Below are positions 34,142 through 50,411 of a DNA stretch of 64,000 bases, piece by piece. This stretch comes from Pararhodobacter zhoushanensis. GTDB taxonomy: Bacteria > Pseudomonadota > Alphaproteobacteria > Rhodobacterales > Rhodobacteraceae. The position numbers and the translations under genes were made by a program. Below the pieces are notes generated by a model, which was given only the letters and a program-made list of their open reading frames with translations, was not told the DNA's origin and searched no databases. Every line of letters begins with the position of its first letter. Position 1 is the first letter of the stretch. The stretch spans positions 1,608,501-1,672,500 of the forward strand of contig NZ_JAPDFL010000001.1 of the NCBI RefSeq assembly GCF_025949695.1, written 5' to 3'.

Positions 34142-35344
34142 TCAGACGCGTTCCAGCGCGATGGCGATGCCCTGACCGACGCCGATGCACATGGTGGCCA
34201 GCGCGCGACGCCCGCCGGTTTCCATCAGCTCCAGCGCCGCCGAGCCGGTGATGCGGGTGCCCGACATGCCCAGCGGGTGCCCCAGCGCAATCGCCCCGCC
34301 GTTGCGGTTCACGCGGGCGTCGTCATCGGCGATGCCGAGTTGGCGCAGGGTGGCGAGGCCTTGTGATGCGAAAGCCTCGTTCAGCTCGATCACGTCGAAA
34401 TCAGCGGCGGTCAGGCCCAGCCGGTCCATCAGCGCCTGCGACGCCGGGGCAGGCCCGATGCCCATGATGCGCGGCGGCACGCCCGCTGTTGCACCGCCGA
34501 GGATGCGCGCAATGGGGGTGAGGCCGTATTTGCGCGCGGCAGCTTCGGACGCGATGATCACCGCCGCCGCGCCGTCATTGACGCCCGAGGCGTTGCCCGC
34601 CGTGACCGTGCCATCTGCGCGGACGATGGGTTTCAGGCGCTCCAGATCGGTCAGCGTGGTCTGCGGGCGCAGGTGCTCGTCGGCGTCCACGGTGGTGACG
34701 CCCTTGCGGGTCTTGATCTCGACCGGCGTGATTTCGCGCGCCAGACGGCCCGAGGCCTGCGCCGCGCCTGCCTTTTGCTGCGAGCGCAGGGCGAAGGCGT
34801 CCTGATCGGCGCGGCTGATGCCGAAATCCTGCGCGACGTTCTCGCCGGTTTCGGGCATGGATTCCACGCCATACGCCGCCTTCATCGCCGGGTTGATGAA
34901 GCGCCAGCCAATCGTGGTGTCATAGACCGCGTTGGTGCGCGAAAAGGCGCTGTCGGCCTTGGGCATCACGAAAGGCGCGCGGGTCATGCTTTCGACGCCG
35001 CCGGCGATCATCAACTCGGCCTCGCCTGCCTTGATGGCGCGGGCGGCGGTGATGATCGCATCCATCCCTGACCCGCAGAGCCGGTTGATCGTGGTGCCGG
35101 GCACGCTCACCGGCAGGCCCGCCAGCAGCGCGGCCATGCGGGCGACGTTGCGGTTATCCTCACCGGCCTGATTGGCACAGCCGAGGATCAGGTCACCCAC
35201 CGCGTCCCAATCAACGCCGGGGTTGCGGGCGGCCAGCGCGCGCAGCGGGATCGCGGCCAGATCATCGGGGCGCACGGGGGCCAGCGCGCCGCCGAAGCGG
35301 CCAATGGGGGTGCGGATGTAGTCGCAGAGATAGGCGTCGGTCAT
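34142..35344 (-). CDS. pcaF: beta-ketoadipyl-CoA thiolase
   Basis: A 400-residue thiolase. It carries the active-site cysteine in NRLCGSGMDAI, the His motif NEAFASQGLATLRQLG, GGAIALGHPLGMSG and the C-terminal cysteine region ATMCIGVGQGIA. It cleaves 3-oxoadipyl-CoA to succinyl-CoA and acetyl-CoA, the last step of aromatic degradation. The start is ATG 35344 next to the end of pcaJ, and the three genes pcaI-pcaJ-pcaF run as one operon. Family and context agree; a general acetyl-CoA acetyltransferase would be the main alternative. Confidence 0.93.
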   Translation of the reverse strand: MTDAYLCDYIRTPIGRFGGALAPVRPDDLAAIPLRALAARNPGVDWDAVGDLILGCANQAGEDNRNVARMAALLAGLPVSVPGTTINRLCGSGMDAIITAARAIKAGEAELMIAGGVESMTRAPFVMPKADSAFSRTNAVYDTTIGWRFINPAMKAAYGVESMPETGENVAQDFGISRADQDAFALRSQQKAGAAQASGRLAREITPVEIKTRKGVTTVDADEHLRPQTTLTDLERLKPIVRADGTVTAGNASGVNDGAAAVIIASEAAARKYGLTPIARILGGATAGVPPRIMGIGPAPASQALMDRLGLTAADFDVIELNEAFASQGLATLRQLGIADDDARVNRNGGAIALGHPLGMSGTRITGSAALELMETGGRRALATMCIGVGQGIAIALERV

Positions 35345-36028
35345 TTACAGCTCCGGGACGGTCAGGTCTTGGACGGGGGCGTCGATGTGCAGCGGGGCAC
35401 CGGTGACGGCTTGCAGGTCGTCGAGCGACAGCGCCGCCAGTTTCTCGCGCAAAACAAAGCGCCCGGCGTCGATATCAATCACGGCGAGCGAGGTATAGAC
35501 CCGCGTGACGCAGGCCACCCCGGTCAGGGGCAGGGTGCAGTGCGCGACCAGCTTGGGTTCGCCCTTTTTGGTGGTGTGTTCGGTGATCACGGCGACGCGC
35601 TTTGCCCCGTGGACCAGATCCATCGCGCCACCGACGGCGGGCACGCCGCCCGGCCCTGTGGACCAGTTCGCCAGATCGCCCGATTGCGCGACCTGATACG
35701 CGCCAAGGATCGCCACATCCAGATGCCCGCCGCGCACCATGGCAAAGCTGTCGGCGTGGTGGAAGAACGAGGCGCCGGGGTTCAGCGTCACGGCGCGTTT
35801 GCCGGCGTTGATCAGATCCCAGTCTTCCTGCCCCGCTGCGGGGGGCTGGCCGAAATCGAGCAGGCCGTTCTCGGTGTGATAGATCGCGCGGCGACCGGCG
35901 ACCTGAAAACGCGCGACCATCTCGGGGAAACCGATGCCGAGGTTGACGTAGGCGCCATCCTCGATGTCCTGCGCCGCACGCCAGGCGATCTGGGCGCTGG
36001 TGAGTTTGACGGTGTCGAGCGTGCTCAT
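35345..36028 (-). CDS. pcaJ: 3-oxoadipate CoA-transferase subunit B
   Basis: A 227-residue class I CoA-transferase beta subunit. It has the nucleophilic glutamate in TENGLLDFG (near residue 53) and glycine-rich GIGFPEMV at the N-terminus. Together with PcaI it moves CoA from succinyl-CoA to 3-oxoadipate. The start overlaps the end of pcaI by four bases (36025-36028). Confidence 0.93.
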   Translation of the reverse strand: MSTLDTVKLTSAQIAWRAAQDIEDGAYVNLGIGFPEMVARFQVAGRRAIYHTENGLLDFGQPPAAGQEDWDLINAGKRAVTLNPGASFFHHADSFAMVRGGHLDVAILGAYQVAQSGDLANWSTGPGGVPAVGGAMDLVHGAKRVAVITEHTTKKGEPKLVAHCTLPLTGVACVTRVYTSLAVIDIDAGRFVLREKLAALSLDDLQAVTGAPLHIDAPVQDLTVPEL

Positions 36029-36732
36029 GGATAGACCACCTGTTCGCGCGTCAGGACTTCTTCCTGCGCGGGGTTGGGAACGGCGACCACGGCATTCACA
36101 AAGATGCCGGGGGTGATGACGTGCTCGGGGTTGATCTGGCCCAAAGGCACGATGCGGCTGGCCTGCACGATGGTCTGCGCGGCGGCCATCGCCATCAGGG
36201 GCGCGAAATTGCGCGCAGCCATGCGGTAGGTGAGGTTGCCGTGGGGGTCGGCGTCCTCGGCCTTGATCAGCGCGATGTCGGCTTTCAGCCAGCGCTCTTG
36301 CACATACATCCGCCCGTCGAAGTCGTGCTGGGGTTTGCCCTTGGCCAGATCGGTGCCATAGCCGGTGGGGGTGTAGAAGGCAGGAATGCCCGCACCCCCG
36401 GCGCGGATGCGTTCGGCCAGCGTGCCTTGCGGGACCAGTTCCAGCTCGATCTGACCGGCGAGATAGGCTTCGTTGAACACCTCGGCATTGGCCGAGCGGG
36501 GGAACGAGCAGATCATCTTGCGCACGCGGCCCTGTTCGATCAGGGCGGCCAGCCCGGCGTGGCCGGTGCCGGCGTTGTTGTTGATCACCGTGAGGTCGCG
36601 CGCGCCGTGGTCGATCAGCGCATGGATCAGCTCGATGGGTGAGCCAGCGCCGCCGAAGCCGCCGATCATCACCGTCATGCCATCGCGGATATCCGCCACG
36701 GCGGCGGCGAGCGAGTCGCGTGTCTTGTCCAT
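36025..36732 (-). CDS. pcaI: 3-oxoadipate CoA-transferase subunit A
   Basis: A 235-residue class I CoA-transferase alpha subunit. Motifs are MIGGFGGAGSPIELIHALID (CoA loop) and GAGIPAFYTPTGYGTDLAKG. I chose ATG 36732, preceded by GAGGAG at the usual distance. It is the first gene of the pcaIJF operon and is divergent from an IclR-family regulator. This operon receives 3-oxoadipate from the maleylacetate reductase encoded 2 kb away. Confidence 0.93.
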   Translation of the reverse strand: MDKTRDSLAAAVADIRDGMTVMIGGFGGAGSPIELIHALIDHGARDLTVINNNAGTGHAGLAALIEQGRVRKMICSFPRSANAEVFNEAYLAGQIELELVPQGTLAERIRAGGAGIPAFYTPTGYGTDLAKGKPQHDFDGRMYVQERWLKADIALIKAEDADPHGNLTYRMAARNFAPLMAMAAAQTIVQASRIVPLGQINPEHVITPGIFVNAVVAVPNPAQEEVLTREQVVYP

Positions 36733-36774
36733 AGAGGGCTCCTCTGAAACTGGCTCAGCGATAGCGCGCGGGGG

Positions 36775-36840
36775 TTGACGGACAAAGCGGATTATTCGGA
36801 TAGTGAACTTTGTTCGGATTATGAAGGTTAATGTTCGCAT
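36775..36840 (+). promoter_or_regulatory. promoter and repeated IclR operator-like sites
   Basis: A sigma70-like pair TTGACG (36775-36780) and GATAGT (36799-36804) is followed by two 13-bp dyads, TTCGGATAGTGAA (36795-36807) and TTCGGATTATGAA (36813-36825), each with TTC/GAA ends. GTTCGCAT (36833-36840) may be a third element. IclR-type PcaU and PobR regulators are known to use three 10-bp elements, so the spacing pattern is suggestive. Confidence 0.5.
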
Positions 36841-37600
36841 GGCGATCAAATCCACCGATTTCATCGGCTCGCTGGCCAAGGGGTTGGCGGTGCTGGAGGG
36901 GTTCGGCGCGCAGGGGGCGCGGTTGTCAGTGTCGCAAGCCGCCGAGGCGGCGGGGCTGGACCGCGCCGGGGCGCGCCGCTGTCTGCTGACGCTGGCCGAG
37001 CTGGGCTACCTGCAACATGACGGCAAGTTCTTTACCCTGACGCCCAAGGTCTTGCGGTTGGGGATCGGGGCTTTGGCGGCGATGCCCTTGGCGCAGGTGG
37101 TGCAGCCGTGGCTGGAACAACTGTCGGAACGGATCGGCGAAAGCGTTTCGGTCAGCGTGCTGGACGAGACCGAGATCGTTTATGTCGCGCGGGCGGCGCA
37201 ACGCCGGGTGATGTCGATCGGGCTGATGCCCGGCTCGCGCCTGCCGGCGCATTGCACGTCGATGGGGCGGGTGCTGCTGGCGGCGCTGCCCGAGGGGCAG
37301 GCGTGGGGGCTGCTTGAACGCTCGGATCTGGCACCGAGGACGGTCTATAGCGTGACGGATCTTGAGGCGCTGAAGGCGCTGCTGGTGCAGGTGCGCGGGC
37401 AGGGTTTCGCGCTGGTGGATCAGGAGGTCGAGATCGGCCTGCGCAGTTTGGCGGTGCCGCTGCGCAACGGGCACGGAACGGTGGTGGCGGCGCTGAATGT
37501 CGGCGTGGCGGCGGCGCAGCGCAGCGCGGCTGAGCTGGTGGAGCAGGTGCTGCCGCAGCTGAAGGCGGTGCAGGACGGCGTCGCGCGGGTGTTGTTCTAG
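36839..37600 (+). CDS. IclR-family regulator of the pca genes
   Basis: A 253-residue protein. It has an N-terminal IclR helix-turn-helix (FIGSLAKGLAVLE, LSVSQAAEAAGLDRAGARRC) and a ligand-binding effector domain (GLMPGSRLPAHCTSMGRVLLAAL, GFALVDQEVEIGLRSLAVPL). The open frame begins earlier (GTG 36803, ATG 36821), but the predicted promoter ends after 36804. ATG 36839 with AAGG upstream gives the standard N-terminus. It is divergent from pcaI, so it is most likely the PcaR/PcaU-type regulator responding to a beta-ketoadipate pathway intermediate. Confidence 0.86.
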   Translation: MAIKSTDFIGSLAKGLAVLEGFGAQGARLSVSQAAEAAGLDRAGARRCLLTLAELGYLQHDGKFFTLTPKVLRLGIGALAAMPLAQVVQPWLEQLSERIGESVSVSVLDETEIVYVARAAQRRVMSIGLMPGSRLPAHCTSMGRVLLAALPEGQAWGLLERSDLAPRTVYSVTDLEALKALLVQVRGQGFALVDQEVEIGLRSLAVPLRNGHGTVVAALNVGVAAAQRSAAELVEQVLPQLKAVQDGVARVLF

Positions 37601-37608
37601 GCCGTGCG

Positions 37609-38529
37609 TCAGACCGGCGCGTTCCAGCGGCCATCAAAGGCATGAGCGCGGAAATGTTCGACCAGCGCGTCGATGAACAGGCGGGTGCGCGCGGGCAGGT
37701 GGACCCGCGAGGGGAAGACCACATTGGTGGTCAGGCGTGGCAGATCCCAGTCGGGCAGCACGCGTACCAGCCGCCCGGCATCGAGATCGGCGTCGATCAC
37801 ATAGATCGGCTGGGACAGGATGCCGATCCCGTCCAGCGCCGCGCGGCGCAGCAGCCGGCCGTCATTGGCGGTGATGCGGCCCTTGACCGGCAGGCGCAGG
37901 GTCTCGGACCCGCGGGTGAAGGACAGGTGCTCCCAGTCATCCGACAAGGTGTAGAGCAGCAGGTCATGCGCGGCCAGATCGGCGGGGGATTGCGGCGTGC
38001 CGTGGGTCTTGAGGTAGTCGGGCGAGGCGGCCAGCACCCGCGGGATCTCGGCCAGTTTGCGGATGGTGACCGAGCTGTCCATCTCGACCCGGCGGATGCG
38101 GATCGCCAGATCGAGGTCGCTGTCGATCACGTCCAGATAGCGGTTCGAGATCTGCAGATCGACGTCGACTTGCGGATAGCGGCGGGTAAAGGCGCGGATC
38201 ACCGGCATCAGGTGGATCTGCGCGAAGGACAGCGAGGCCCCGACGCGCAAAACCCCGCGCGGCTCGACCGAGACAAGGCTGATGCTCTCTTCTGCCTGTG
38301 ACAGCGTGGCGAGGATGTCGCGGGCATGCTCGGCGAAGCGCTCGCCCTCGGGCGTGAGCGACAGATGGCGGGTGGTACGCTGGACCAGCCGCACGCCCAG
38401 CCGGTTTTCCAACCCGCTGAGGTGACGGCTGACGCCCGAGACCGACATGCCCAGCGTATCGGCGGCGCGGGTCAGGCTGCGTTCGTCTGCGACACGCACA
38501 AAAGCAGTCAGTTCCGAGAAGCGGTCCAT
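37609..38529 (-). CDS. LysR-family regulator
   Basis: A 306-residue regulator. It has an N-terminal winged helix-turn-helix (MDRFSELTAFVRVADERS, TLGMSVSGVSRHLSGLE) and a C-terminal effector-binding domain (GVLRVGASLSFAQIHLMPVI). It is divergent from the maleylacetate reductase/dioxygenase/aldehyde dehydrogenase operon with 180 bp between, so it is the likely regulator of that operon. It is convergent with the IclR gene, 8 bp apart. Confidence 0.9.
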   Translation of the reverse strand: MDRFSELTAFVRVADERSLTRAADTLGMSVSGVSRHLSGLENRLGVRLVQRTTRHLSLTPEGERFAEHARDILATLSQAEESISLVSVEPRGVLRVGASLSFAQIHLMPVIRAFTRRYPQVDVDLQISNRYLDVIDSDLDLAIRIRRVEMDSSVTIRKLAEIPRVLAASPDYLKTHGTPQSPADLAAHDLLLYTLSDDWEHLSFTRGSETLRLPVKGRITANDGRLLRRAALDGIGILSQPIYVIDADLDAGRLVRVLPDWDLPRLTTNVVFPSRVHLPARTRLFIDALVEHFRAHAFDGRWNAPV

Positions 38530-38709
38530 TGTTGACCTCAGCGCAAGAAATTTAAGGGAATATTCACATAAAGCGGCGCGGCACTCAAGCCGCAGGTCTG
38601 ACGGGGCGTGGAATTCTTGCGTGTGTTGCAAAAGTGTTTCCCAATTAACGTGATTTATCCCGCAACTATGCAGTGCCACACTCGGCCACCTGAGTTTGGT
38701 CTGGACCCG

Positions 38710-39840
38710 ATGACGCAAGACAACGCCCCCCTTCACGCCACTGGCCCCGCGCCCCTTCCGGGATACGATGGCCGGGGCTTCACCTATGTTGCGCGTCCCG
38801 GACGCGTGGTGTTCGGCACAGGCACGCTGGCGCAACTGCCTGCCGAGGTGGACGCGCTGGGGGCCAGCCGCGCGCTGATCCTGTCAACGCCGCAGCAACG
38901 CGGGCAAGCCGAAGCGGTGGCGCAGTTGCTGGGCGCGCGGGCGGTGGGCATCTTTGACGGCGCGGCCATGCACACGCCGGTCGAGGTGACGCAAACCGCG
39001 CTGGCTGTGCTGGGCGATATCAAGGCGGATGTGCTGGTCGCGATTGGCGGCGGTTCGACGACCGGGCTGGGCAAAGCCTTGGCCCTGCGCACGGATTTGC
39101 CGCAGGTGGTGCTGCCGACGACCTATGCCGGGTCCGAGATGACGCCGATCTTGGGCGAGACCGAGGGCGGCGTGAAGCGCACGCAGAGCAGCGACAGGGT
39201 GCTGCCCGAGGTGGTGATCTATGATGTGGCGCTGACGCTGGGCCTGCCGGTGGCGATGTCGGTGACCAGCGGGCTGAACGCCATCGCCCACGCGGTCGAG
39301 GCGCTCTATGCCCAGAACGCCAATCCGGTGGTCGATCTGATGGCGCTTGAGGCGATCGGCGCGATCAGCGCCGCGCTGCCGGTGATCGTGCGCGAGCCGG
39401 GCAACGGGCAGGCTCGGTCGCAGGCGCTGTATGGTGCGTGGCTGTGCGGCATCTGTCTGGGGGCGGTCGGCATGGCGCTGCATCACAAGCTTTGTCACAC
39501 GCTGGGCGGCAGCTTCGGGCTGCCCCACGCCGAAACCCACACCGTCATCCTGCCGCACGCGCTGGCATATAACGCCCCGGCGATCCCCGGCGTGATGGCG
39601 CGTCTGGCGCGGGTGCTGGGGCCGGACCCGGCGCGGGCGCTGTTCACGCTGGCGGCTGAAGGGGGTGTGCCGACCTCGCTTGCGGCGCTGGGCATGCCCG
39701 GGGACGGGCTGGACCGCGCCACCGCGCTGGCGCTGGCCAATCCCTATTGGAACCCGCGCGCGCTGGAGGCGGCCCCCTTGCGGGCGTTGCTGGCCCGCGC
39801 GCAGGCGGGCGCACCGCCGATGCTGGAGGAGAGAGCATGA
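38710..39840 (+). CDS. maleylacetate reductase
   Basis: A 376-residue iron-containing alcohol-dehydrogenase family protein. Family signs are FTYVARPGRVVFGTG at the N-terminus, the NAD(P)-binding region VAIGGGSTTGLGKALAL, AGSEMTPILGET, and the metal/active-site histidines in LHHKLCHTLGGSFGLPHAETH. It reduces maleylacetate to 3-oxoadipate, which pcaIJF then degrades. ATG 38710 is the most likely start; an ATG at 38671 is also in frame. The end overlaps the dioxygenase start (ATGA, 39837-39840). It is probably controlled by the divergent LysR gene. Confidence 0.9.
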   Translation: MTQDNAPLHATGPAPLPGYDGRGFTYVARPGRVVFGTGTLAQLPAEVDALGASRALILSTPQQRGQAEAVAQLLGARAVGIFDGAAMHTPVEVTQTALAVLGDIKADVLVAIGGGSTTGLGKALALRTDLPQVVLPTTYAGSEMTPILGETEGGVKRTQSSDRVLPEVVIYDVALTLGLPVAMSVTSGLNAIAHAVEALYAQNANPVVDLMALEAIGAISAALPVIVREPGNGQARSQALYGAWLCGICLGAVGMALHHKLCHTLGGSFGLPHAETHTVILPHALAYNAPAIPGVMARLARVLGPDPARALFTLAAEGGVPTSLAALGMPGDGLDRATALALANPYWNPRALEAAPLRALLARAQAGAPPMLEERA

Positions 39841-40676
39841 GCGCGTATTTGACCGAAGAAACCTCGACCCAGACCGTCAACGCCCGGATGGACACCAGCG
39901 CGGACCCGCGGCTGCGCCGGGTGATGGGGGCACTGGTCGAACACCTGCACGCCTTCATCAAGGACGTCGAGCTGACCGAAGAGGAATGGGGCGTCGCCAT
40001 CGATTTCCTCACCAAGACCGGCCAGATCTGCGGCGACACGCGGCAGGAATTCGTGCTGTTGTCGGACGTGCTGGGCGTGTCGATGCTGGTCGACGCGATC
40101 AACCACCGCTTCGAGCAGGGCGCGACGCCAACCACGGTTTTCGGCCCGTTCCACGTCGAGGGCGCGCCTGAGCGGGCGATGGGCGCGTGTATCAGCGCCG
40201 ATGGCAAGGGCGAGATTTGTCTGTTCGAGGGGCGGGTGACCGATCTGGACGGCAACCCGGTCGAAGGCGCCTGTCTGGATGTGTGGTCCGACAATGCCGA
40301 CGGGTTCTATGACGTGCAGCAGCCCGGCATCCAGCCGCAATGGAACAACCGCGGGATTTTCCGCACCGGGCCGGACGGGCGCTATGCGTTTCGCGGCATC
40401 CGTCCGATCTCGTACCCGATCCCCGATGACGGGCCGGTCGGCAAGATGCTGGCGGCGCTGGGGCGGCATCCGTGGCGGCCTGCGCATATGCATTTTCTGG
40501 TCTCGGCCCCGGGCTTTCGCCGGGTGATCACCCACACCTTCGTGGCGGGCGATCCCTATCTGACCTCGGACGCCGTGTTCGGCGTCAAGGATGCTCTGAT
40601 CGTCGATTTCGAGCGGGTCGAGACCGCGTCCGAGATCTGGCGCGCGCCGTTCGATTTCATTTTGCAGCGCGCCTGA
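39837..40676 (+). CDS. intradiol ring-cleavage dioxygenase, probable hydroxyquinol 1,2-dioxygenase
   Basis: A 279-residue non-haem iron(III) dioxygenase. The four iron ligands can be placed at Tyr158 (DGFYDVQ), Tyr193 (RPISYPIPDD), His217 and His219 (PWRPAHMHF). The helical N-terminal dimerisation domain is complete. Operon position after maleylacetate reductase indicates hydroxyquinol as substrate, giving maleylacetate. Catechol 1,2-dioxygenase has the same fold, and sequence alone cannot fully separate the two. The gene is coupled to its upstream neighbour by four bases. Confidence 0.85.
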   Translation: MSAYLTEETSTQTVNARMDTSADPRLRRVMGALVEHLHAFIKDVELTEEEWGVAIDFLTKTGQICGDTRQEFVLLSDVLGVSMLVDAINHRFEQGATPTTVFGPFHVEGAPERAMGACISADGKGEICLFEGRVTDLDGNPVEGACLDVWSDNADGFYDVQQPGIQPQWNNRGIFRTGPDGRYAFRGIRPISYPIPDDGPVGKMLAALGRHPWRPAHMHFLVSAPGFRRVITHTFVAGDPYLTSDAVFGVKDALIVDFERVETASEIWRAPFDFILQRA

Positions 40677-40717: not shown

Positions 40718-42226
40718 ATGAAGATCAGCCCCCCTGACGCCCTCGTTTCGGCTATCGCGCCGGCGGTTGCCGATTTCCTCAAGGCCCCCAAGATGCTGAT
40801 CGGACGCGATCAGGTCGCGGCGGCCAAGGGCGCGACCTATCCGGTCTATAACCCCGCAACCGGGCTGGAGCTGGCGCAGGTGCCCGCCGGCACGGCCGAG
40901 GATGTGGATCTGGCCGTGCGCGCGGCGCAGGCGGCATTCACCGGGCCGTGGTCGCAGATGCTGCCGGTCACGCGGCAGAACCTGATGTTGAAACTGGCGC
41001 AGCTGATCGAGGATAACGGCGAGGAACTGGCGCAGCTCGAGACGCTGAACAACGGCAAATCGATCATGCTGTCGCGTCTGGTCGAGGTGCAATCCTCGGC
41101 CGAATACATCCGCTACATGGCGGGCTGGGCGACCAAGATCCAAGGGTCGACGCTGGATGTGTCCATCGCGATCCCGCCGGGCATGCAGTATCAGGCCTAT
41201 ACCCGCAAAGAGGCGGTCGGCGTGGTGGCGGCGATCACGCCGTGGAACTTCCCGCTGAACATGGCGGTGTGGAAGATCGCGCCCGCGCTGGCGGCGGGGT
41301 GCACGGTGGTGCTGAAACCGGCGGAGGAGACGCCGCTGACCTCGATGCGTCTGGCGCAGCTGTGTCTTGAGGCCGGGTTCCCCGAGGGCGTGGTCAACGT
41401 GATCACCGGCATGGGCGAGGATGCGGGCGCGCCGCTGGTGGCGCATCCGGGCATCGCGAAGATCACCTTCACCGGCTCGACCGAGACCGGCAAGCTGATC
41501 GGCGTTCAGGCGATGAAGGACATGAAGCGCGTCACGCTGGAGCTGGGCGGCAAGGCCCCGATGGTGATGTTCGACGATATGGATCTGGACCTGCTGGGGG
41601 CGGCGGCGGGGATCGGCGCGTTCTTCAACTCGGGCCAGACCTGCTGCGCCGGGACGCGGATCTATGCGCAAAAGGGCATCTACGAGAAGGCGCTCGAGGT
41701 GATCGCCAATGTCACCCGCAGCCTGCCGATCGGCCCCGGCCTGAACCCCGGCAACCAGATCAACCCGGTGGTCTCGGCCCGGCATCAGGCGCATGTCAAA
41801 GCCTGCATCGCGCGCGGCATCGAGCAGGGGGCGAAGCCTGTCATCGGTGGCAGCGCGCCCGAGGCCGGCTTCTACGTCGCACCCGAGCTGTTCACCGATG
41901 TGCGTCAGGATATGGGTCTGATGCAGGAAGAGATTTTCGGCCCCGTCGTCACCATGACGCCCTTTGACGACCCCGAGGACGCGATCCGCATGGCCAATGA
42001 CACGCGCTATGGTCTGGGCGCGTCGATCTGGACCAGCGATCTGAACAAGATGATGCGCTATGTGCCGCGCATTCAGGCCGGGACGGTCTGGGTCAACAGC
42101 CACAATATTCCCGACCAGAACATGCCGTTTGGGGGCGTCAAGCAATCGGGCATCGGGCGCGAGCACGGGGCGGGGGCGCTGGACAACTACCTCGAAACCA
42201 AGTCGGTCTGCATCGCATACCGTTGA
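40718..42226 (+). CDS. NAD(P)-dependent aldehyde dehydrogenase
   Basis: A 502-residue aldehyde dehydrogenase. The general base is Glu275 in LELGGKAPM and the nucleophile Cys309 in FFNSGQTCCAG. The cofactor motif FTGSTETGK (residues 251-259) and the substrate loop ITPWNFPLNMAVWK are present. It most resembles the phenylacetaldehyde/betaine aldehyde type. It is the last gene of the maleylacetate reductase operon, separated by 41 bp from the dioxygenase. In this context indole-3-acetaldehyde or phenylacetaldehyde are candidate substrates, which is inference. Confidence 0.85.
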   Translation: MKISPPDALVSAIAPAVADFLKAPKMLIGRDQVAAAKGATYPVYNPATGLELAQVPAGTAEDVDLAVRAAQAAFTGPWSQMLPVTRQNLMLKLAQLIEDNGEELAQLETLNNGKSIMLSRLVEVQSSAEYIRYMAGWATKIQGSTLDVSIAIPPGMQYQAYTRKEAVGVVAAITPWNFPLNMAVWKIAPALAAGCTVVLKPAEETPLTSMRLAQLCLEAGFPEGVVNVITGMGEDAGAPLVAHPGIAKITFTGSTETGKLIGVQAMKDMKRVTLELGGKAPMVMFDDMDLDLLGAAAGIGAFFNSGQTCCAGTRIYAQKGIYEKALEVIANVTRSLPIGPGLNPGNQINPVVSARHQAHVKACIARGIEQGAKPVIGGSAPEAGFYVAPELFTDVRQDMGLMQEEIFGPVVTMTPFDDPEDAIRMANDTRYGLGASIWTSDLNKMMRYVPRIQAGTVWVNSHNIPDQNMPFGGVKQSGIGREHGAGALDNYLETKSVCIAYR

Positions 42227-43199: not shown

Positions 43200-44363
43200 A
43201 TGTCCGTCCCTCCGACTGTTGCAAAACACGCCCTTGTCGCCCCGCTGGATCTGGGCGGTGACGGCCTGCGCGTGGTGGTCAAAGATTGCATTGATATTGC
43301 CGGTTACGCGACGCGCTGCGGCTCTCGCGCCTTTGACGACGCAGTGCCTGCGGACCGTCATGCCGAGGTGGTGCAGGCGCTGCTGGACGCCGGGTGCCGG
43401 ATCACCGGCAAGACCAACATGCACGAGCTGGCATACGGCATGACCGGGGTGAACGAGGCTTACGGCACGCCGGTCAACCCGCGCTGGCCGGACCGGATTC
43501 CGGGTGGCTCGTCCTCGGGCTCGGCGGTGGCGGTGGCGGCGGGGATCTGCGATTTCGGCGTTGGCACCGATACCGGCGGTTCGGTGCGCCAACCGGCGAT
43601 CTGTTGCGGCGTCTACGGTATCAAGCCGACCTATGGGCGGATCTCGCGCAAGGGGCTCAGCCCGGCGGCATCGTCGCTGGATTGCGTCGGCGCTTTCGCC
43701 CGCGACATGGACATGCTGATCGCCGCGATGCAGGCGATGGACCCAAGCTTTGCGCCCGTCACCCTGACCACCGCACCGCGTCTGGCGCGCATCAAGGCCG
43801 AGCTGGACGACGAGGTCGGTCAAGCGCTGGTCTATGCCCTGATGGAGGGCGCTCCCGAGGTCGACTACGTGACGCTGCCCTCGCTGGAGGCGGCGTTTGC
43901 GGCGGGCATGACGGTGATCGGCGCGGAAACCGTCGCGGCCTTCGGGCATCTGCTGGATGAGGGCGCGCCTCTGGGCGCTGACATCCGTGCCCGCCTGACG
44001 GCCAGCCGCGCGATCACCCCCGACCAACTGGCGCAGGCCGAAGCCGTGCGCGCGGCGTTCACCGCCGAGGTCGACGCGGTGCTCGCCACAGCCGAGGCGC
44101 TGATCACCCCGGCGCTGCCGATGGTGCCGCCGACCCTGACCGAGGCGCAAGACCCCAAGACCGTGCTGCCGCTGACGCGCTTTCTGCGCCCGTTCAATCT
44201 GAGCGGCCACCCCGCGATCGTGATCCCCTCGCGCCGCCCGTCCGACGGGCTGCCGGTCGGGCTGCAACTGGTGGGGCGCAAGTATGACGATGCCCGGCTG
44301 TGCGCCATTGCGAAATGGCTGGCCGAAAGCCTTCCGGCCTTCAAGGAAAAGGACGCTGTTTGA
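43200..44363 (+). CDS. iacH: amidase-signature protein, IacH-type
   Basis: A 387-residue amidase-signature enzyme with its Ser-cisSer-Lys machinery: Lys28 in VVVKD, the serine cluster PGGSSSGSA at 101-109 and Ser128 in GTDTGGSVRQPA. It hydrolyses amides. iac clusters carry an amidase of unknown exact role, possibly releasing indole-3-acetate from conjugates. It is the first gene of the operon; its TGA overlaps the next ATG by one base (TGATG, 44361-44365). No strong ribosome site is seen upstream of ATG 43200. Confidence 0.85.
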   Translation: MSVPPTVAKHALVAPLDLGGDGLRVVVKDCIDIAGYATRCGSRAFDDAVPADRHAEVVQALLDAGCRITGKTNMHELAYGMTGVNEAYGTPVNPRWPDRIPGGSSSGSAVAVAAGICDFGVGTDTGGSVRQPAICCGVYGIKPTYGRISRKGLSPAASSLDCVGAFARDMDMLIAAMQAMDPSFAPVTLTTAPRLARIKAELDDEVGQALVYALMEGAPEVDYVTLPSLEAAFAAGMTVIGAETVAAFGHLLDEGAPLGADIRARLTASRAITPDQLAQAEAVRAAFTAEVDAVLATAEALITPALPMVPPTLTEAQDPKTVLPLTRFLRPFNLSGHPAIVIPSRRPSDGLPVGLQLVGRKYDDARLCAIAKWLAESLPAFKEKDAV

Positions 44364-45508
44364 TGAGTGTGACAACCGAGCTGAAACCCGATCTGGCGGC
44401 CGAGAAAGCCCGCGTGCTGGCACAGATCCGCGCCCGGCGGGCCGAGTTCACCGCGCTGCGCCATGTGCCGGTCGATATGGTGGCCGAGCTGAAGAAGATC
44501 GGTGTTTACCGCGCCTTTGTGCCCGAGCGGTTTGGCGGCGACGGGCTGACCCCGTCGCAGTTCTGCCGCCTGATCGAGGATATCTCTGCCGCCGACGCCT
44601 CGACCGGCTGGGTGGCCAGCTTCGGGGTTTCGGCGACCTATCTGGCCGCGCTGCCGGTCGATACCTATGCCCAGATCTTCGGCAAGAACCCTGACACGGT
44701 ATTCGCGGGCGCGATGTTCCCGCCGCAACCGGCCGAGATCGTCGACGGCGGGTTCAAGGTGCGGGGGCGCTGGCCGTGGTGCTCGGGCGTGATGGGGGCC
44801 GATATCGTCGGTGCCGGGATCAAGGTGAGCGGCGACAACAGCCCGCTGCCGCGCGTCGCGGTGATGCCGCGCAGCAAGGTGACGGTGGACGAGACCTGGC
44901 GTTCGGTTGGTCTGTCGGCGACCGGCAGCCACGACACGGTGGTCGAAGATGTGGTGGTCGCGCCCGAGTGGACCTTTATCCGCGGTGGCAAGCCGATGAT
45001 GGAGGACCGCGTGTTCCACTATCCGGCGATGGCGCTGGCGGCGCAGGTGCTGGCCGTTGTCGCGCTGGGCACCGCGCGCGAGGCGCTGGACTGGCTGCAC
45101 GGCGACGCGATGCGCCGGGCCTCGATCACCGGTGCCCCCAGCCCGGGCGCGCGCCCCTATGTGCAGGCCGAATACGCCAAGGCCGAGAGTCTGCTGATGG
45201 GCGCGCGGGCGGCATTTTACGACACGATTGACCAGGCCTGGGAGCAGATGCTCACCCAAGGCGCGGTCGACCGCCAGACCCATGTGCGTCTGCGGATGGT
45301 CGCCAGCAAGGCCGCGCATGACGGGGCCGAGGCGGCGCGGCTGGCTTTCGTTCTGGGCGGCTCGGACGCGATGTTCACCGGGCATCCGCTGGGTCGCTGC
45401 ATGATCGACGCGGCCTGCGTCGCCCAGCACGCCTTTATGGGCGAGGGCACCTGGACCGCTGCCGGGGCCACGCTGTTCGAGCAGCCCACCGTGCCCGGCT
45501 TCCCCTGA
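44363..45508 (+). CDS. iacA: acyl-CoA dehydrogenase-fold flavin-dependent monooxygenase, IacA-type
   Basis: A 381-residue protein of the acyl-CoA dehydrogenase fold. It resembles two-component oxygenases (DszC/HsaA kind) more than true dehydrogenases: AFVPERFGGDGLTPSQFCRL, GRWPWCSGVMGADIVGAG, TWRSVGLSATGSHDTVVEDV. In the iac pathway IacA uses reduced flavin to hydroxylate indole-3-acetate, with IacG supplying the flavin. It is coupled to the amidase gene, and the IacB-type gene follows 46 bp later. Confidence 0.88.
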   Translation: MSVTTELKPDLAAEKARVLAQIRARRAEFTALRHVPVDMVAELKKIGVYRAFVPERFGGDGLTPSQFCRLIEDISAADASTGWVASFGVSATYLAALPVDTYAQIFGKNPDTVFAGAMFPPQPAEIVDGGFKVRGRWPWCSGVMGADIVGAGIKVSGDNSPLPRVAVMPRSKVTVDETWRSVGLSATGSHDTVVEDVVVAPEWTFIRGGKPMMEDRVFHYPAMALAAQVLAVVALGTAREALDWLHGDAMRRASITGAPSPGARPYVQAEYAKAESLLMGARAAFYDTIDQAWEQMLTQGAVDRQTHVRLRMVASKAAHDGAEAARLAFVLGGSDAMFTGHPLGRCMIDAACVAQHAFMGEGTWTAAGATLFEQPTVPGFP

Positions 45509-45554
45509 TCCGCCCCCTGCGGGCTGCCCCTGATTTTCCGAAAAGGACCGTTTC

Positions 45555-45926
45555 ATGACTGACCAGACCCCGATCCGCACCTTGTTGTGCATGAACAACC
45601 ACCAAAGCTTTTTCGATCTGCCCTTTGACCAGATCGGCAAGGTCTGGAAGGCAACGCAGGCCTATATGTCGGGTGTCGCCGGTATCGAGGGCGCCACGAT
45701 CATCGGCACCTTCGATGACGACCAGACGATGGTCGGCACCTCGCGCGGGTTTCCCTTCACCTGGTACATGCTGGTCGATTTCCCCAACCGCGACGCGGTC
45801 AAGGCTGCCTGCAACCTGCTGCGCACCATCGAGGTGGGCGACGACGGTCACCGCCTTTGGAAATACATGAGCGTCGAGGCCCGTCTGGGCCGCGCGCTGG
45901 AAATCCCTCAAGCCCACAGGAGCTGA
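45555..45926 (+). CDS. iacB: small protein of unknown function, IacB-type
   Basis: A 123-residue protein starting MTDQTPIRTLLCMNNHQSFF, preceded by AAAAGGACC. I recognise no domain by motif; it looks like a small soluble alpha-beta protein (possibly a ferredoxin-like barrel, with FTWYMLVDFPNRDAVKAACN and DGHRLWKYMSVEAR). The identification as IacB rests on position between IacA- and IacC-type genes and on size. In published iac clusters IacB is likewise an uncharacterised short protein. Confidence 0.65.
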   Translation: MTDQTPIRTLLCMNNHQSFFDLPFDQIGKVWKATQAYMSGVAGIEGATIIGTFDDDQTMVGTSRGFPFTWYMLVDFPNRDAVKAACNLLRTIEVGDDGHRLWKYMSVEARLGRALEIPQAHRS

Positions 45927-45930
45927 ACCC

Positions 45931-47205
45931 ATGTCCCTGGACACGCCGAAATTCAGCGATCTCGACGCGCTTTACAGTGCCGACTCCAAAGTCGCGACCG
46001 CGATGTACGAAGACCCTGACCTGTTCGCCGAAGAGATGGAGCGCATCTTCAAGCGGACCTGGGTCTGGGTCGCGCATGAAAGCGAATTCCCCGACAAGGG
46101 CTCGTTCAAGCTGTCCACTGTCGGGCTTGAGCCGGTCATCGTGGTGCGCGACCGCAAGGACAAGATCCACGTCATGGTCAACCGCTGCCGCCACCGGGCG
46201 GCGACGGTCTGCGAGGTCAAGAAGGGCAAGACCAGCTCGTTCCAGTGCCCGTACCACGGCTGGGGCTATGGTCTGGACGGCAGCCTGCGTGCCTTGCCGT
46301 ACCCTGAGCAATACGGCGACGATTTCGACAAGGCGCAGCATGGTCTGCTCAAGCTGCGGGCCGAAAGCTACAACGGCATGGTGTTCGCGACCTTCAACGA
46401 GGACGCCGAGCCGCTGGTCGATTTCCTTGGCCCGCAGGTGTGCCGCTACATCGACCTGTTCATGAAGCAGGGCGGCGGGTTCCCGATCAAGGTCTTGGGC
46501 GAGCATCAGTTCACCGTGCCGATGAACTGGAAGGTTCAGCTGGAGAACACCACCGACGGCTACCACTTCCCGGTCGTGCACAAGAGCTTCATGCAGACGC
46601 TCGACGGCGAGACGAACGACATGTTCGACTTTCTGGAAAAGGGCAAAGGCTGGGTCGAGGATCTGGGCAACGGCCATTCGGTGATGGTGATGATCCCCGA
46701 GCTGATCGATCTGGATGACAACCTCGACGCGCCGATCCCCGACCGCTTTGCCGAGCTGGCGCAGGAGCTGCGTGACGACGGGTATCCCGAGGATCAGGTC
46801 AAGAAGATCGTGCGCGCTGTTGGCGGGGCCGGGTTCAACCTGAACCTGTTCCCCAACGTGTCCTTCAGTCTGGCCTTCTTCCGCGTGCTGACCCCGGTCA
46901 CCGTCGAGCGCACCGATATCCGCCACATGGCGCTGGGCATGGACGGCGGCCCTGCCGCCGCCAACCGGATGCGTCTGCGGCTGCATGAGCATTTTCAGGG
47001 GCCGATGGGCTTTGGATCGCCCGATGACGCCGAGGTCTGGGAACGCGTGCAGCGCGGGACCAAGGGCGGCGAGGCGCTGCCGATTCTGGTGAACCGCGGT
47101 CTGATCGACGAAGTGCCCGGCGAAGCGGGGCCGAAGGGGCATATCAGCGCCGAAACCGGCATGCGCGCGGCCTACACGATGTGGAAAAGGATGATGGCGC
47201 AATGA
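45931..47205 (+). CDS. iacC: Rieske oxygenase large subunit, IacC-type
   Basis: A 424-residue ring-hydroxylating oxygenase alpha subunit. The Rieske [2Fe-2S] ligands are Cys86, His88, Cys106 and His109 (CRHRAATVC... and CPYHGW). The mononuclear iron site is in ENTTDGYHFPVVHKS, with His212 and His217 and bridging Asp209. It dioxygenates the substrate with electrons from the IacF-type reductase. The small subunit gene overlaps by four bases (47202-47205), supporting an alpha-beta oxygenase. Confidence 0.93.
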   Translation: MSLDTPKFSDLDALYSADSKVATAMYEDPDLFAEEMERIFKRTWVWVAHESEFPDKGSFKLSTVGLEPVIVVRDRKDKIHVMVNRCRHRAATVCEVKKGKTSSFQCPYHGWGYGLDGSLRALPYPEQYGDDFDKAQHGLLKLRAESYNGMVFATFNEDAEPLVDFLGPQVCRYIDLFMKQGGGFPIKVLGEHQFTVPMNWKVQLENTTDGYHFPVVHKSFMQTLDGETNDMFDFLEKGKGWVEDLGNGHSVMVMIPELIDLDDNLDAPIPDRFAELAQELRDDGYPEDQVKKIVRAVGGAGFNLNLFPNVSFSLAFFRVLTPVTVERTDIRHMALGMDGGPAAANRMRLRLHEHFQGPMGFGSPDDAEVWERVQRGTKGGEALPILVNRGLIDEVPGEAGPKGHISAETGMRAAYTMWKRMMAQ

Positions 47206-47699
47206 AGGACGTGACCAACACTCAGGATCTGGCGCTGCTGTCGCAGGTCAGCGCCTTCATCTGGGCCGAGGCCGATATGCTCGACGCCAAGGCCTATGAG
47301 GACTGGCTGGAGCTGTGGACCAGGGATGGGCTCTACATCATGCCGATGGGCGAGGGCGAGGATTACGCCAACAGCCTGAACCTGTGCTACGACAACGACA
47401 AGATGCGGCGCGATCGCATCGGGCGGTTCCGGCAGGGGTTCTCGATCTCGTCCGCGCCTGCGGCGCAGACGGTGCGGGCGATGTCGCGCTTCGTGATCGA
47501 AAAGGTCGAGGGCGATACAGTCACCGTCCGCTGCGCCGAGCAGCTGGTCGAGGACAAGTTCGGCCGCCAGCGCCTGTTCGCCGCCAACACCACCTACACG
47601 CTGATCCGCCAGCCCGAGGGCGGTTTCAGGATCGCGCAGAAGGTGGCGCGGTTGCTCAATTCTGACGGGATGCTGACCTCGCTCAGCTATCTGTTCTGA
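47202..47699 (+). CDS. iacD: ring-hydroxylating oxygenase small subunit, IacD-type
   Basis: A 165-residue beta subunit with the NTF2-like fold (DMLDAKAYEDWLELWTRDGL, CAEQLVEDKFGRQRLFAANT, FRIAQKVARLLNSDGMLT). It stabilises the alpha subunit and has no catalytic residues. The ATG at 47202 overlaps the stop of the large subunit, and its own stop overlaps the SDR start (TGATG, 47697-47701). Confidence 0.9.
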   Translation: MKDVTNTQDLALLSQVSAFIWAEADMLDAKAYEDWLELWTRDGLYIMPMGEGEDYANSLNLCYDNDKMRRDRIGRFRQGFSISSAPAAQTVRAMSRFVIEKVEGDTVTVRCAEQLVEDKFGRQRLFAANTTYTLIRQPEGGFRIAQKVARLLNSDGMLTSLSYLF

Positions 47700-48457
47700 T
47701 GGGGGCCCCTTTGCCAGAGCAAATCCAGACCGCCGTGATCACCGGTGCGGCGAACGGTTTTGGTGCCGTTGCCGCCCGCGCGCTGCACCGCGCGGGCTAC
47801 CGCGTCATCATCACCGACATCGTGCACGAACCGGCGCTGGCACTGGCCAACGCGCTGGATCTGGCGGGCGACACGGCGGTTGCCGCGACGCTGGACGTCA
47901 CAAAGCCTGAGGATTTTCAGGCGGTGCTGGACAAGGTGGTGGATCGCTGGGGCTCGGTCGAGGTGTTGGTCAACAACGCCGCGCGCACGGCGGTCAAGCC
48001 GGTGCTCGACATCGACCCGGCCGATTTCAACGCCATCCTGACCACCAATGCGGGCGGCACCTTTGCCGGCAGCCAGATCTTTGGCCGCTATTTCAAGACA
48101 CGCGGCTATGGGCGGATCGTCAACATGGCCTCGCTGGCCGGACAGAACGGCGGCACCGCGACGGGCGCGCATTATGCCGCCTCGAAAGGCGCGATCCTGA
48201 CGCTGACCAAGGTTTTCGCCCGCGATCTGGCGGCGTTCGGGGTGACCTGCAACGCCATCGCGCCGGGGCCGATGGACACGCCGCTGGTGCGTGAGGTGCT
48301 GGGCGACGGCATCGACAAGGCCATGGCGGCCATTCCGGTCGGCCGGTTGGGCGATCCTGACTTCGTGGCCGAGATGGTGGTGATGCTGGCCAGCCCCAAG
48401 GCGGCGTTCGTCAACGGCGCGTGCTGGGACGTGAACGGCGGGATCTATCCGCGATGA
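47699..48457 (+). CDS. iacE: short-chain dehydrogenase, IacE-type
   Basis: A 252-residue classical SDR. The nucleotide motif is TGAANGFG (residues 15-22), with NNAA at 92-95, catalytic Ser145, Tyr159 and Lys163 in YAASK. It oxidises or reduces an intermediate of the pathway with NAD(P). In the iac pathway IacE is placed early, at the oxindole stage. The gene is coupled on both sides (TGATG and ATGA). Confidence 0.9.
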   Translation: MGAPLPEQIQTAVITGAANGFGAVAARALHRAGYRVIITDIVHEPALALANALDLAGDTAVAATLDVTKPEDFQAVLDKVVDRWGSVEVLVNNAARTAVKPVLDIDPADFNAILTTNAGGTFAGSQIFGRYFKTRGYGRIVNMASLAGQNGGTATGAHYAASKGAILTLTKVFARDLAAFGVTCNAIAPGPMDTPLVREVLGDGIDKAMAAIPVGRLGDPDFVAEMVVMLASPKAAFVNGACWDVNGGIYPR

Positions 48458-49422
48458 GCACTGGCACCCCCCTGACCCTGCGCGTCACCGAGCGGCTGGA
48501 TGACCGCGGCGCAATCGCCCGTATCCGGCTGGAGCCGGTGCAGGGCACCTTGGTGCCGTTCACCGCAGGCGCGCATCTGGACCTGCATCTGGTCGAGAAC
48601 ACGCTCGATCTGTGGCGGCAATATTCGCTGTGCTCGGACCCGGCGGAAACCGGGTTTTACGAGATCGGCGTGCTGAAAGACCCGGTCAGCCGGGGTGGCT
48701 CGGAGGCTGTACACCGGCTGGCGGTCGTCGGGGCCGAGCTGAGCGTCGAAGGTCCGCGCAACCATTTCCCGCTGGCCGAGGACGCCGCGCAATCGGTGCT
48801 GATCGGCGGCGGGATCGGCATCACGCCGATGATCGCCATGGCCAAGCGGCTGCACGCGCTGGGCCGCGATTTCGTGCTGCATTACTGCACGCGCTCTGAG
48901 AGCGTCACGGCGTTTCTGGACACGCTGCGCGCGGCGCCCTTTGCCGACCGGGTTGTGTTCCACTTCGACGATGGCGCGGCAGACCAGAAGCTGGATCTGG
49001 CCCGCGATCTGCCCGCCCCGGCGGCTGACACGCATCTTTACGTATGCGGGCCGCAGGGCTTCATGGACTGGGTGCTGGGCGCGGCCGAGACGGCAGGGCA
49101 CGCCAGCGGGCAGGTGCACCGCGAGTATTTCTCGGCGGATGTGGATCTGACCGGCGAGGGGTTCGAGGTCGAGGCGCGCGCCTCGGGGATCACGGTCAAG
49201 GTTGGCCCCAAGGACACCATCGCCAAGGCGCTGATGGCGGCGGGCGTGAAGCTTGAGGTCAAATGCGAAGAGGGCGTCTGCGGCACCTGTGTCACCGACG
49301 TGCTCGAGGGCGAGATCGACCACCGGGACCAGTTTCTGACCGACGACGAACGCGAAGACGGCGATCTGATTTGCGCCTGCTGTTCGCGCGCCAAGGGTGC
49401 GCGGCTGGTGCTGGACATCTGA
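48454..49422 (+). CDS. iacF: ferredoxin-type oxygenase reductase (phthalate dioxygenase reductase class), IacF-type
   Basis: A 322-residue reductase with an FMN/FAD-binding barrel (LWRQYSLCSDP), an NAD domain (IGGGIGITPMIAMAKRL, LYVCGPQGFMDWVL) and a C-terminal plant-type [2Fe-2S] domain. Its ligands Cys271, Cys276, Cys279 and Cys307 (CEEGVCGTC and the ICACC region) sit at nearly the same numbers as in phthalate dioxygenase reductase. It passes electrons from NADH to the Rieske oxygenase. The start overlaps the SDR stop by four bases. Confidence 0.92.
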   Translation: MSTGTPLTLRVTERLDDRGAIARIRLEPVQGTLVPFTAGAHLDLHLVENTLDLWRQYSLCSDPAETGFYEIGVLKDPVSRGGSEAVHRLAVVGAELSVEGPRNHFPLAEDAAQSVLIGGGIGITPMIAMAKRLHALGRDFVLHYCTRSESVTAFLDTLRAAPFADRVVFHFDDGAADQKLDLARDLPAPAADTHLYVCGPQGFMDWVLGAAETAGHASGQVHREYFSADVDLTGEGFEVEARASGITVKVGPKDTIAKALMAAGVKLEVKCEEGVCGTCVTDVLEGEIDHRDQFLTDDEREDGDLICACCSRAKGARLVLDI

Positions 49423-49436
49423 AAGGGGACAGCGCG

Positions 49437-49934
49437 ATGGAACTGACCGAAACACAACAGGCGTTCCGCGAGGGCATGAGCCGTCTGGGCGCTGCGGTGA
49501 ACCTGATCACCACCGACGGGCCGGGCGGGCGGCATGGCATCACCGCCTCGGCGGTGTGCTCGGTCACCGACAACCCGCCGACGCTGCTGGTCTGCGTCAA
49601 CCGCAACGCCTTTGCGCATGACCGGTTCGTGCAGAACGGCGTGCTTTGCGTCAATGTGCTGGCCGCCGACCATCAGGCGTTGTCGGGTCTGTTCGCGCGC
49701 TATGTCGAAGGCGTGGACCGCTTTGCCCATGGCGACTGGACGCTGGCCGAGACCGGCTCGCCGGTGCTGGCCGATGCCAATGTCGCGTTTGACTGCAAAG
49801 TGACGGCGACCCATGCGCAGGGCACCCACACGGTGTTTTTCTGCGAGGTCGTCGCGGTGCGGATGCGCGAGACCGCGCGGCAGGGGCTGGTGTGGTTCAG
49901 CCGGGACTATCACCATCTGGCAGCAGAACGCTGA
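49437..49934 (+). CDS. iacG: flavin reductase, IacG-type
   Basis: A 165-residue NAD(P)H:flavin oxidoreductase of the split-barrel family (SRLGAAVNLITTDGPGGRHG, ITASAVCSVTDNPPTLLVCV, LCVNVLAADHQALS, VVAVRMRET). It makes the reduced flavin used by the IacA-type oxygenase. It is the last gene of the operon; AAAGGGGAC precedes ATG 49437. It is convergent with the MarR repressor gene, 15 bp away. Confidence 0.92.
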   Translation: MELTETQQAFREGMSRLGAAVNLITTDGPGGRHGITASAVCSVTDNPPTLLVCVNRNAFAHDRFVQNGVLCVNVLAADHQALSGLFARYVEGVDRFAHGDWTLAETGSPVLADANVAFDCKVTATHAQGTHTVFFCEVVAVRMRETARQGLVWFSRDYHHLAAER

Positions 49935-49949
49935 ATGGCCGCGCAGGGA

Positions 49950-50411
49950 TCAGAGCTTTTGCAACTGGACCTGCGCCTTTTCCAGCAAGGTGTTCAGCTG
50001 CGCGACCTCGTCGTCGGTGAAGGCCTCGAAGGTCGCCTCGAAGATCCGCTTTGCCTCTTCCATCGCGGCCTTGCGCAGACGGTCGCCGTCGGGCGTCAGG
50101 CACACCTCGGTCACGCGCCCGTCGCTGGGGCGCACGCGGGTCGTCACCAGCTTCTCGCCGATCATCCGCTGCACGATCTTGGTCGTGGTGTTCAGCTTGA
50201 GCGCCGAGAAATCCGCGATTTCCGAGATCGACAGATATTCGTCTTCAAACAGGCACATCAGCGCGCGCCAGCGGGCGATATCCAGCCCCAGCGGTTTGAT
50301 CCGCCGTTCCAGCGCGTTCACGTAGCCCGCGCTGACATGGCTGACCCAGAAGAACGGCCAGTGGCGTTTGAAGTGGCTGGGATTTTCATCCAGGCGCGGT
50401 TGATTGGTCAT
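49950..50411 (-). CDS. iacR: MarR-family regulator, IacR-type
   Basis: A 153-residue winged helix protein. It has the MarR core (RWRALMCLFEDEYLSISEIA, LKLNTTTKIVQRMIGEKLVT, RPSDGRVTEVCLTPDGDRL) with terminal dimerisation helices. iac operons of other bacteria are repressed by a MarR protein relieved by indole-3-acetate. Here the palindrome TTGCGAATTTCGCAA in the iac-type control region is a plausible target. It is divergent from the TRAP transporter genes, which it may also control. Confidence 0.86.
   Translation of the reverse strand: MTNQPRLDENPSHFKRHWPFFWVSHVSAGYVNALERRIKPLGLDIARWRALMCLFEDEYLSISEIADFSALKLNTTTKIVQRMIGEKLVTTRVRPSDGRVTEVCLTPDGDRLRKAAMEEAKRIFEATFEAFTDDEVAQLNTLLEKAQVQLQKL

Follow-up and report, generated by a model that had tools for sequence, protein, structure and literature searches.

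An iac-type operon joined to hydroxyquinol genes in Pararhodobacter zhoushanensis and its possible role in 5-hydroxyindole-3-acetate catabolism

Here, we propose that an iac-type operon of Pararhodobacter zhoushanensis, found in a 64,000-nucleotide stretch of contig NZ_JAPDFL010000001.1 (positions 1,608,501 to 1,672,500; hereafter the window), forms one island with the hydroxyquinol and 3-oxoadipate genes to its left. This island would serve the catabolism of a ring-hydroxylated indole-3-acetate, most likely 5-hydroxyindole-3-acetate (5-HIAA), a reading that we hold to be somewhat better than an even call. It is based on the gene families and operon layout of the window, on the recurrent linkage of the same genes in relatives, and on a source genome in which no catechol route scores over model cut-offs; every substrate and reaction given below for this organism is predicted from these. 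The iac enzymes remove the pyrrole part of indole-3-acetate (IAA), leaving a benzene ring with two hydroxyl groups at the former fusion carbons. If a ring hydroxyl is already present at carbon 5 or 6 of the substrate, the product would be 1,2,4-trihydroxybenzene (hydroxyquinol) instead of catechol, and no additional oxygenase would be needed. Published iac loci take IAA to catechol (PMC6624763), a product stated also in the available extract of PMC9613470.

Gene content of the island

The genes of the island are as follows, with family names taken from Pfam, NCBIfam and PDB matches; the comparison with Pseudomonas putida 1290 is through its IacR only, as a PDB chain.

34142..36879, minus strand: pcaF, pcaJ and pcaI, 3-oxoadipyl-CoA thiolase and 3-oxoadipate CoA-transferase (NCBIfam, over cut-off at 675, 289 and 359 bits)
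36803..37600, plus strand: PcaR-type IclR regulator, divergent from pcaIJF (TIGR02431, 327 bits, over cut-off)
37609..38529, minus strand: LysR regulator, divergent from the next two genes (LysR-type NCBIfam models; start set by homologue)
38710..39840, plus strand: maleylacetate reductase, MAR (PDB 3hl0, 423 bits; start at the nearest ATG upstream of the homologue start)
39837..40676, plus strand: hydroxyquinol 1,2-dioxygenase, HQD (PDB 8r2x, 6-chlorohydroxyquinol 1,2-dioxygenase, 439 bits)
40718..42226, plus strand: aldehyde dehydrogenase, ALDH, of phenylacetaldehyde type (StyD model, 684 bits, below its cut-off of 850)
43200..44363, plus strand: iacH-type amidase (PF01425, 258 bits)
44363..45508, plus strand: iacA-type two-component flavin monooxygenase, oxygenase part (Acyl-CoA_dh_2/HsaA-like)
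45555..45926, plus strand: iacB-type small protein (slot as in related iac loci)
45931..47205, plus strand: iacC, Rieske oxygenase alpha subunit (PF00355 and PF00848; ligand motif D209-x2-H212-x4-H217)
47202..47699, plus strand: iacD, Rieske oxygenase beta subunit (PF00866, 72 bits)
47699..48457, plus strand: iacE, short-chain dehydrogenase (PF13561)
48454..49422, plus strand: iacF, [2Fe-2S] reductase (PF00111 and PF00175)
49437..49934, plus strand: iacG, flavin reductase (PF01613; RutF/HpaC-like)
49950..50411, minus strand: iacR, MarR regulator, convergent with the operon (top PDB match 7KUA, IacR of P. putida 1290)

An original prediction, made from the letters of this DNA, had described an eight-gene coupled operon matching published iac clusters in gene types, and this description holds. 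All eight genes lie on the plus strand in the order H-A-B-C-D-E-F-G (43200-49934), tightly packed with overlaps or short gaps between them, such as the TGATG overlap of iacH and iacA at 44363, and their content is that of an iac cluster: IacA with IacG, IacCD with IacF, IacE, IacB and IacH, and a MarR of the IacR group. The predicted MarR gene is likewise present but, being on the minus strand and convergent, is not the last member of the operon. Its product scores 92 bits against 7KUA, 87 against 7L19 and 65 against 7L1I, with 41 for 3CDH of the IadR group. The iacA product shares 44-46% identity with its IacA-type counterparts in two plasmid-borne iac loci of Acinetobacter, and the iacB product matches no Pfam or NCBIfam model. 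Membership of the iac family is thus clear by gene content, and the predicted function of turning IAA into catechol is doubtful in this genome.

To the left, the maleylacetate reductase, intradiol dioxygenase and pcaIJF genes that had been noted with their regulators are all in place, PcaR standing beside pcaIJF and LysR beside MAR. The true pcaI start falls inside the called open reading frame, and none of the 25 NCBIfam models shown for the LysR gene exceeded its own cut-off. MAR and HQD overlap by ATGA (39837-39840), and the ALDH gene sits between this hydroxyquinol block and the iac block. The solved relatives of MAR include two maleylacetate reductases (3hl0, 423 bits; 3w5s, 421) and 3jzd (422), named only as an iron-containing alcohol dehydrogenase. 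For HQD, the five top PDB matches (439-239 bits) comprise three enzymes named as hydroxyquinol-type, one PnpC and one unnamed intradiol enzyme. That HQD is a mis-named catechol dioxygenase was considered and ruled out, as it reaches 175 bits with TIGR02439 (cut-off 392) and 145 bits with the best catechol enzyme in the PDB, against 439 for 8r2x. Judged from these matches, the lower pathway of the window is one for hydroxyquinol.

Three intradiol dioxygenase genes are present in the source genome (4.65 Mb in 2 contigs, 97.3% complete): HQD, a second whose PDB scores favour hydroxyquinol over catechol enzymes (210 vs 127 bits), and a weaker third (58.9 bits). They score 175, 132 and 49 bits with the NCBIfam catechol 1,2-dioxygenase model (cut-off 392), and none exceeds the cut-off for protocatechuate 3,4-dioxygenase. 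The best matches in the genome to muconate cycloisomerase (72 bits, cut-off 335) and to muconolactone isomerase (15.8 bits, cut-off 26.7) also fall short, although lacking the latter alone is uninformative, 23 of 29 relatives' genomes (10 of 12 in a sister iac lineage) being without it as well. Catechol 2,3-dioxygenase was rejected too, since none of its six matches is over cut-off (best 205 vs 320); the two best are HpaD-type, the top one over and the other just under the HpaD cut-off. With no gene of a catechol route over cut-off, catechol, the known iac product, has no outlet in this genome that the models recognise, whereas for hydroxyquinol an outlet adjoins the operon. The second intradiol gene (C1:754561-755106, in L002) stands beside an IclR-type regulator and a citrate-synthase-like gene, its neighbours being labelled by eye.

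Among known systems, the iac locus of P. putida 1290 (iacABCDEFG-R-HI) shares its gene types with the window, and its IacR is the best solved relative of the window MarR. In contrast to P. putida 1290, the window has the order H-A-B-C-D-E-F-G with a divergent gene for a SnoaL-like protein; P. putida 1290 has catR-catBCA nearby (PMC6624763), whereas the window has hydroxyquinol genes, an ALDH and an aminotransferase. The iad loci of Variovorax and Bradyrhizobium, which act on IAA, share a Rieske oxygenase and a MarR with the window. Their route runs via isatin to anthranilate, and the Variovorax iad locus lacks iacA (PMC9613470, available extract). An iad-type pathway was ruled out, because the window contains iacA and its MarR is nearer to IacR than to the IadR group. 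As for hydroxyquinol modules, the window has their two enzymes, HQD and MAR, of the same kinds as solved hydroxyquinol dioxygenases and maleylacetate reductases, but joined to iac, with no resorcinol- or chlorophenol-type hydroxylase recognised beside them among the scanned genes.

Linkage of hydroxyquinol and iac genes in relatives

Within the window's iac lineage, 12 of 29 distinct loci have HQD near iac, against 0 of 15 in a sister lineage and 0 of 7 in the outgroup (Fisher p = 0.003 for window against sister lineage, kinship ignored). We compared 31 loci from a genome scan, 16 regions from a plasmid collection and 8 iac loci, besides that of the source genome, from 292 genomes sampled evenly across the order. 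A tree of IacA, IacC and IacE (53 tips; an earlier version had 45) splits the two lineages with a support of 100, and the iac loci of Acinetobacter, Klebsiella, Burkholderia, Cupriavidus and Novosphingobium fall outside both. Linkage was called within the fetched flank, at an identity of at least 50% for HQD and at least 60% for ALDH. These flanks are unequal. At least 10 kb was available to either side of IacA for most loci, and about 7.5-11 kb for L109-L115; four sister-lineage loci (L034, L037, L039, L044) and one of the window lineage (L018) are short on the left. L116 (the same locus as L043) and L047, L102 and L107 (no IacC found, so unplaced) were left out, and L010 is almost identical to the window and hence not independent of it.

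In the 12 linked loci, HQD and IacA are 3.6-11.4 kb apart (the 11.4 kb of L101 being visible only since 14 kb was fetched there), and MAR is beside HQD in 11, the exception being Martelella L101. The order LysR-MAR-HQD-ALDH upstream of iac is found in the window and L115, and, with a Dabb gene added, in L043 of Gemmobacter and L100 of Shinella; other arrangements are inverted (Azospirillum), MAR-HQD-Tct-ALDH (Sagittula), or iac-TRAP-MAR-HQD, downstream (Celeribacter). Such repeated re-linking in differing gene orders is what a shared pathway predicts, and it supports the single island of the original prediction. ALDH follows the same pattern: 10 of the 12 loci linked to HQD have it, whereas the 17 other window-lineage and 15 sister-lineage loci all lack it. 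In 3 of the 7 outgroup loci (L103, L104, L106), catechol genes adjoin iac instead. Catechol-2,3-dioxygenase-like genes of 290 bits or more occur in 9 of 12 sister-lineage genomes (2 over cut-off), compared with 1 of 6 HQD-linked genomes and 7 of 11 of the remaining window-lineage genomes at a threshold of 287 bits.

Amine genes occur in 4 of the 12 linked loci, as an aminotransferase (L010, L041) or as TynB with a flavin adenine dinucleotide (FAD) oxidase (L043, L100). The latter pair, with TctCBA, also lies beyond HQD in L093, a further stretch of the L011 contig, and L114, which has no HQD linkage, carries TynB and FAD oxidase likewise. In Paracoccus litorisediminis, genes for HQD, MAR, ALDH, an aminotransferase, a permease and a deacetylase-like protein make up a separate cluster (L084) on a contig other than that of iac. 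Of the 12 linked loci, 6 encode a histone-deacetylase-family protein (PF00850), which none of the 32 other loci of both lineages does.

The original prediction was unsure how often iac occurs in this order or with this lower pathway. IacC was found at E<=1e-120 in 9 of the 292 sampled genomes, the source genome included; HQD is present in 2 of the 8 others and lies no more than 10 kb from iac in each. A search of 17 genomes from the same genus (11 with a completeness of 90% or more) gave no close IacA at E<=1e-60, so that the island looks accessory in the genus.

In an exploratory column screen, IacC T195 was found in 12 of 13 HQD-linked loci (window included) and 1 of 17 unlinked ones, and V215, inside the D-x2-H-x4-H iron-ligand motif, in 12 of 13 and 3 of 17. 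None of 60 label shuffles equalled the top value; all columns of nine proteins were screened and the shuffles ignored kinship. T195 is found too in two Acinetobacter loci, one having catechol genes, and we draw no claim of specificity from it.

Predicted substrate and competing explanations

5-HIAA arises naturally from serotonin via an aldehyde, and IAA is met as such. An origin of 5-HIAA through an aldehyde would explain why ALDH travels with HQD, and serotonin is probably what feeds the island. Serotonin, or a similar indole-ethylamine, would be imported by the Tct or TRAP transporter to the right of the operon (TctCBA being a candidate uptake system), deaminated to the aldehyde by the omega-aminotransferase, a candidate for this step, and oxidised to 5-HIAA by the ALDH, a candidate 5-hydroxyindole-acetaldehyde dehydrogenase. 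IacA/IacG, IacE/IacB, and IacCD/IacF with IacH would then strip the pyrrole ring and its nitrogen, leaving a diol on the benzene ring and giving hydroxyquinol, which HQD would convert to maleylacetate, MAR to 3-oxoadipate, and PcaIJ with PcaF to succinyl-CoA and acetyl-CoA. 6-Hydroxyindole-3-acetate would give the identical ring pattern and is unseparated from 5-HIAA. The original prediction had named IAA or a related indole as the substrate. IAA has become the less likely of these, as iac yields catechol and the source genome has no catechol route over cut-offs; a hydroxylated indole fits better because HQD and MAR are present.

Going further, we regard as possible, at rather less than an even chance, a catabolon of Alphaproteobacteria that is complete for serotonin. 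One island, which in relatives occurs on plasmids too, would encode the import of serotonin, its deamination and oxidation to 5-HIAA, iac dismantling to hydroxyquinol and the 3-oxoadipate pathway, with entry from N-acetylserotonin or 5-hydroxytryptophol where relatives carry a histone-deacetylase-family protein or a GMC oxidase. Over titles and abstract starts, with most subscription journals outside the search, no published bacterial gene cluster for the mineralisation of serotonin or 5-HIAA turned up; nor, over titles and abstract starts, did any publication joining iac, hydroxyquinol and 5-HIAA. If true, our proposal means that an auxin operon has been re-routed to complete the breakdown of another signal molecule, with the adjoining ring-cleavage genes revealing which one, and it offers a genetic handle on the bacterial mineralisation of serotonin and 5-HIAA. 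The presence of iac, then, need not equal an auxin degrader.

Several observations weigh against the 5-HIAA reading, and some of them suit other explanations. One such explanation is an ordinary operon that makes catechol from auxin, the adjoining hydroxyquinol genes serving a different catabolic route. The gene set and MarR agree with this, and a tyrosine kept in the window MarR, which would be the IAA-carboxylate contact Tyr44 of IacR if the crystal construct carries a 24-residue tag, cannot separate IAA from 5-HIAA. HQD is missing from the fetched flank of 17 of the 29 window-lineage loci, one of which (L109) carries CatA/CatB beside iac in its stead, so the lineage as a whole is not specific to hydroxyquinol. 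At an identity of at least 56%, HQD is encoded by 13 of 17 window-lineage genomes, but no farther than 10 kb from iac in only 6 of them; the sister lineage has it in 2 of 12 genomes, leaving aside a 57% fragment of G084. L010 and L024 do not enter such whole-genome counts. HQD has other uses, because it also occurs apart from iac, with ABC-transporter genes, in L085-L088 (window-lineage genomes) and L091 (a sister-lineage genome); in L087, L088 and L091 it also stands beside an MhpA-like hydroxylase family, annotated in L087 only. In the order sample, co-occurrence at the genome level is weak, the 2 of 8 other iac genomes (both linked) comparing with 40 of 283 without a close IacC. In Shinella L100, moreover, the neighbourhood includes a CatB-like gene (41%) and another intradiol gene. 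Whole-genome searches of six HQD-linked genomes showed a catechol gene away from the locus in four (muconolactone isomerase in three Azospirillum genomes, catechol 2,3-dioxygenase over cut-off in a fourth). The missing catechol route is hence a trait of the source genome and not of the HQD-linked type, which slightly lowers our confidence in 5-HIAA. Set against the ordinary auxin operon are the lack of a catechol route over cut-off in the source genome, the repeated occurrence of HQD, MAR and ALDH beside iac in differing arrangements, and the finding that PobA (4-hydroxybenzoate) is the sole aromatic hydroxylase outside the operon in the scanned subset of window genes. We judge it rather unlikely.

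The same linkage data would suit a variant iac system that hydroxylates IAA once more, so that plain auxin would yield hydroxyquinol. Flavin monooxygenases of the HsaA/HpaH type, to which relatives of IacA belong, hydroxylate phenols. The operon oxygenases, however, are the same as in iac loci beside catechol genes, no further oxygenase able to add a third hydroxyl was recognised among the annotated window neighbours, and the company of ALDH and amine genes is left unexplained, which makes this improbable. We give an equally small chance to iac enzymes that take IAA and its hydroxylated forms alike, with each strain's lower pathways deciding what is finished. A single iac lineage includes loci with HQD and loci with Cat genes beside iac, and catechol genes exist elsewhere in some of the HQD-linked genomes. 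The HQD-linked island is the minority form, and both substrates may be accepted by the iac enzymes. As no catechol route is over cut-off in the source genome, the hydroxylated branch alone would be complete there. 5-HIAA is the substrate that we favour.

Neighbouring genes and further observations

The ALDH gene and the five features below had been overlooked in the original prediction.

42279..42845, minus strand: SnoaL-like protein, distantly IacI-like, divergent from iacH (PF13577, 57.5 bits)
50535..53355, plus strand: TRAP transporter DctP-Q-M (PF03480, PF04290, PF06808; DctM as two open reading frames)
53358..54386, minus strand: AraC-type regulator (PF12625, PF12833)
54533..55906, plus strand: class III (omega) aminotransferase (PF00202; PDB 5lh9, omega transaminase, 578 bits)
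56058..59109, plus strand: TctC-B-A tripartite tricarboxylate-type transporter (PF03401, PF07331, PF01970)

The SnoaL protein of the window is 34-37% identical to SnoaL genes inside sister-lineage iac operons, where a SnoaL gene lies between B and C in 13 of 15 loci. Marinomonas sp. NFXS50, a marine isolate that degrades IAA, has the enzyme types of the window in the order iacABICDEFG, with iacI between B and C and catechol genes in the genome (PMC11373566, available extract), a layout that agrees with the sister lineage and not with the window. The same extract records an aldolase and a reductase of unknown function in Marinomonas iac loci; in the sister lineage, ketopantoate-reductase-like and class II aldolase genes follow the TRAP genes at L044:10336-12118 and L108:23053-24835.

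The large TRAP permease (52070-53355) is split across two reading frames in the window and forms a single 428-residue frame in P. zhoushanensis L010, so the split is either an assembly error or a real lesion. No tRNA and no Rfam match at gathering score was found in the window. Histone-deacetylase-family genes lie at L013:6883-8004, L101:10558-11679 and L084:6180-7289, in HQD-linked iac loci or the HQD cluster; N-acetylserotonin as their substrate is a guess. At L043:6915-9964, on a Gemmobacter plasmid, a GMC oxidase is annotated in two pieces and small hypothetical genes come after an ABC substrate-binding gene, as if the stretch were decaying.

Beyond TctCBA, at 59146-61619, a GlcD-like FAD oxidase gene overlaps one for a pyridoxal-phosphate decarboxylase related to aromatic amino acid decarboxylases; the Sagittula locus lacks both genes. 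The top PDB matches of the decarboxylase are 4obu and 7xin (DOPA decarboxylase), and it has 362 residues, compared with about 480 in these.

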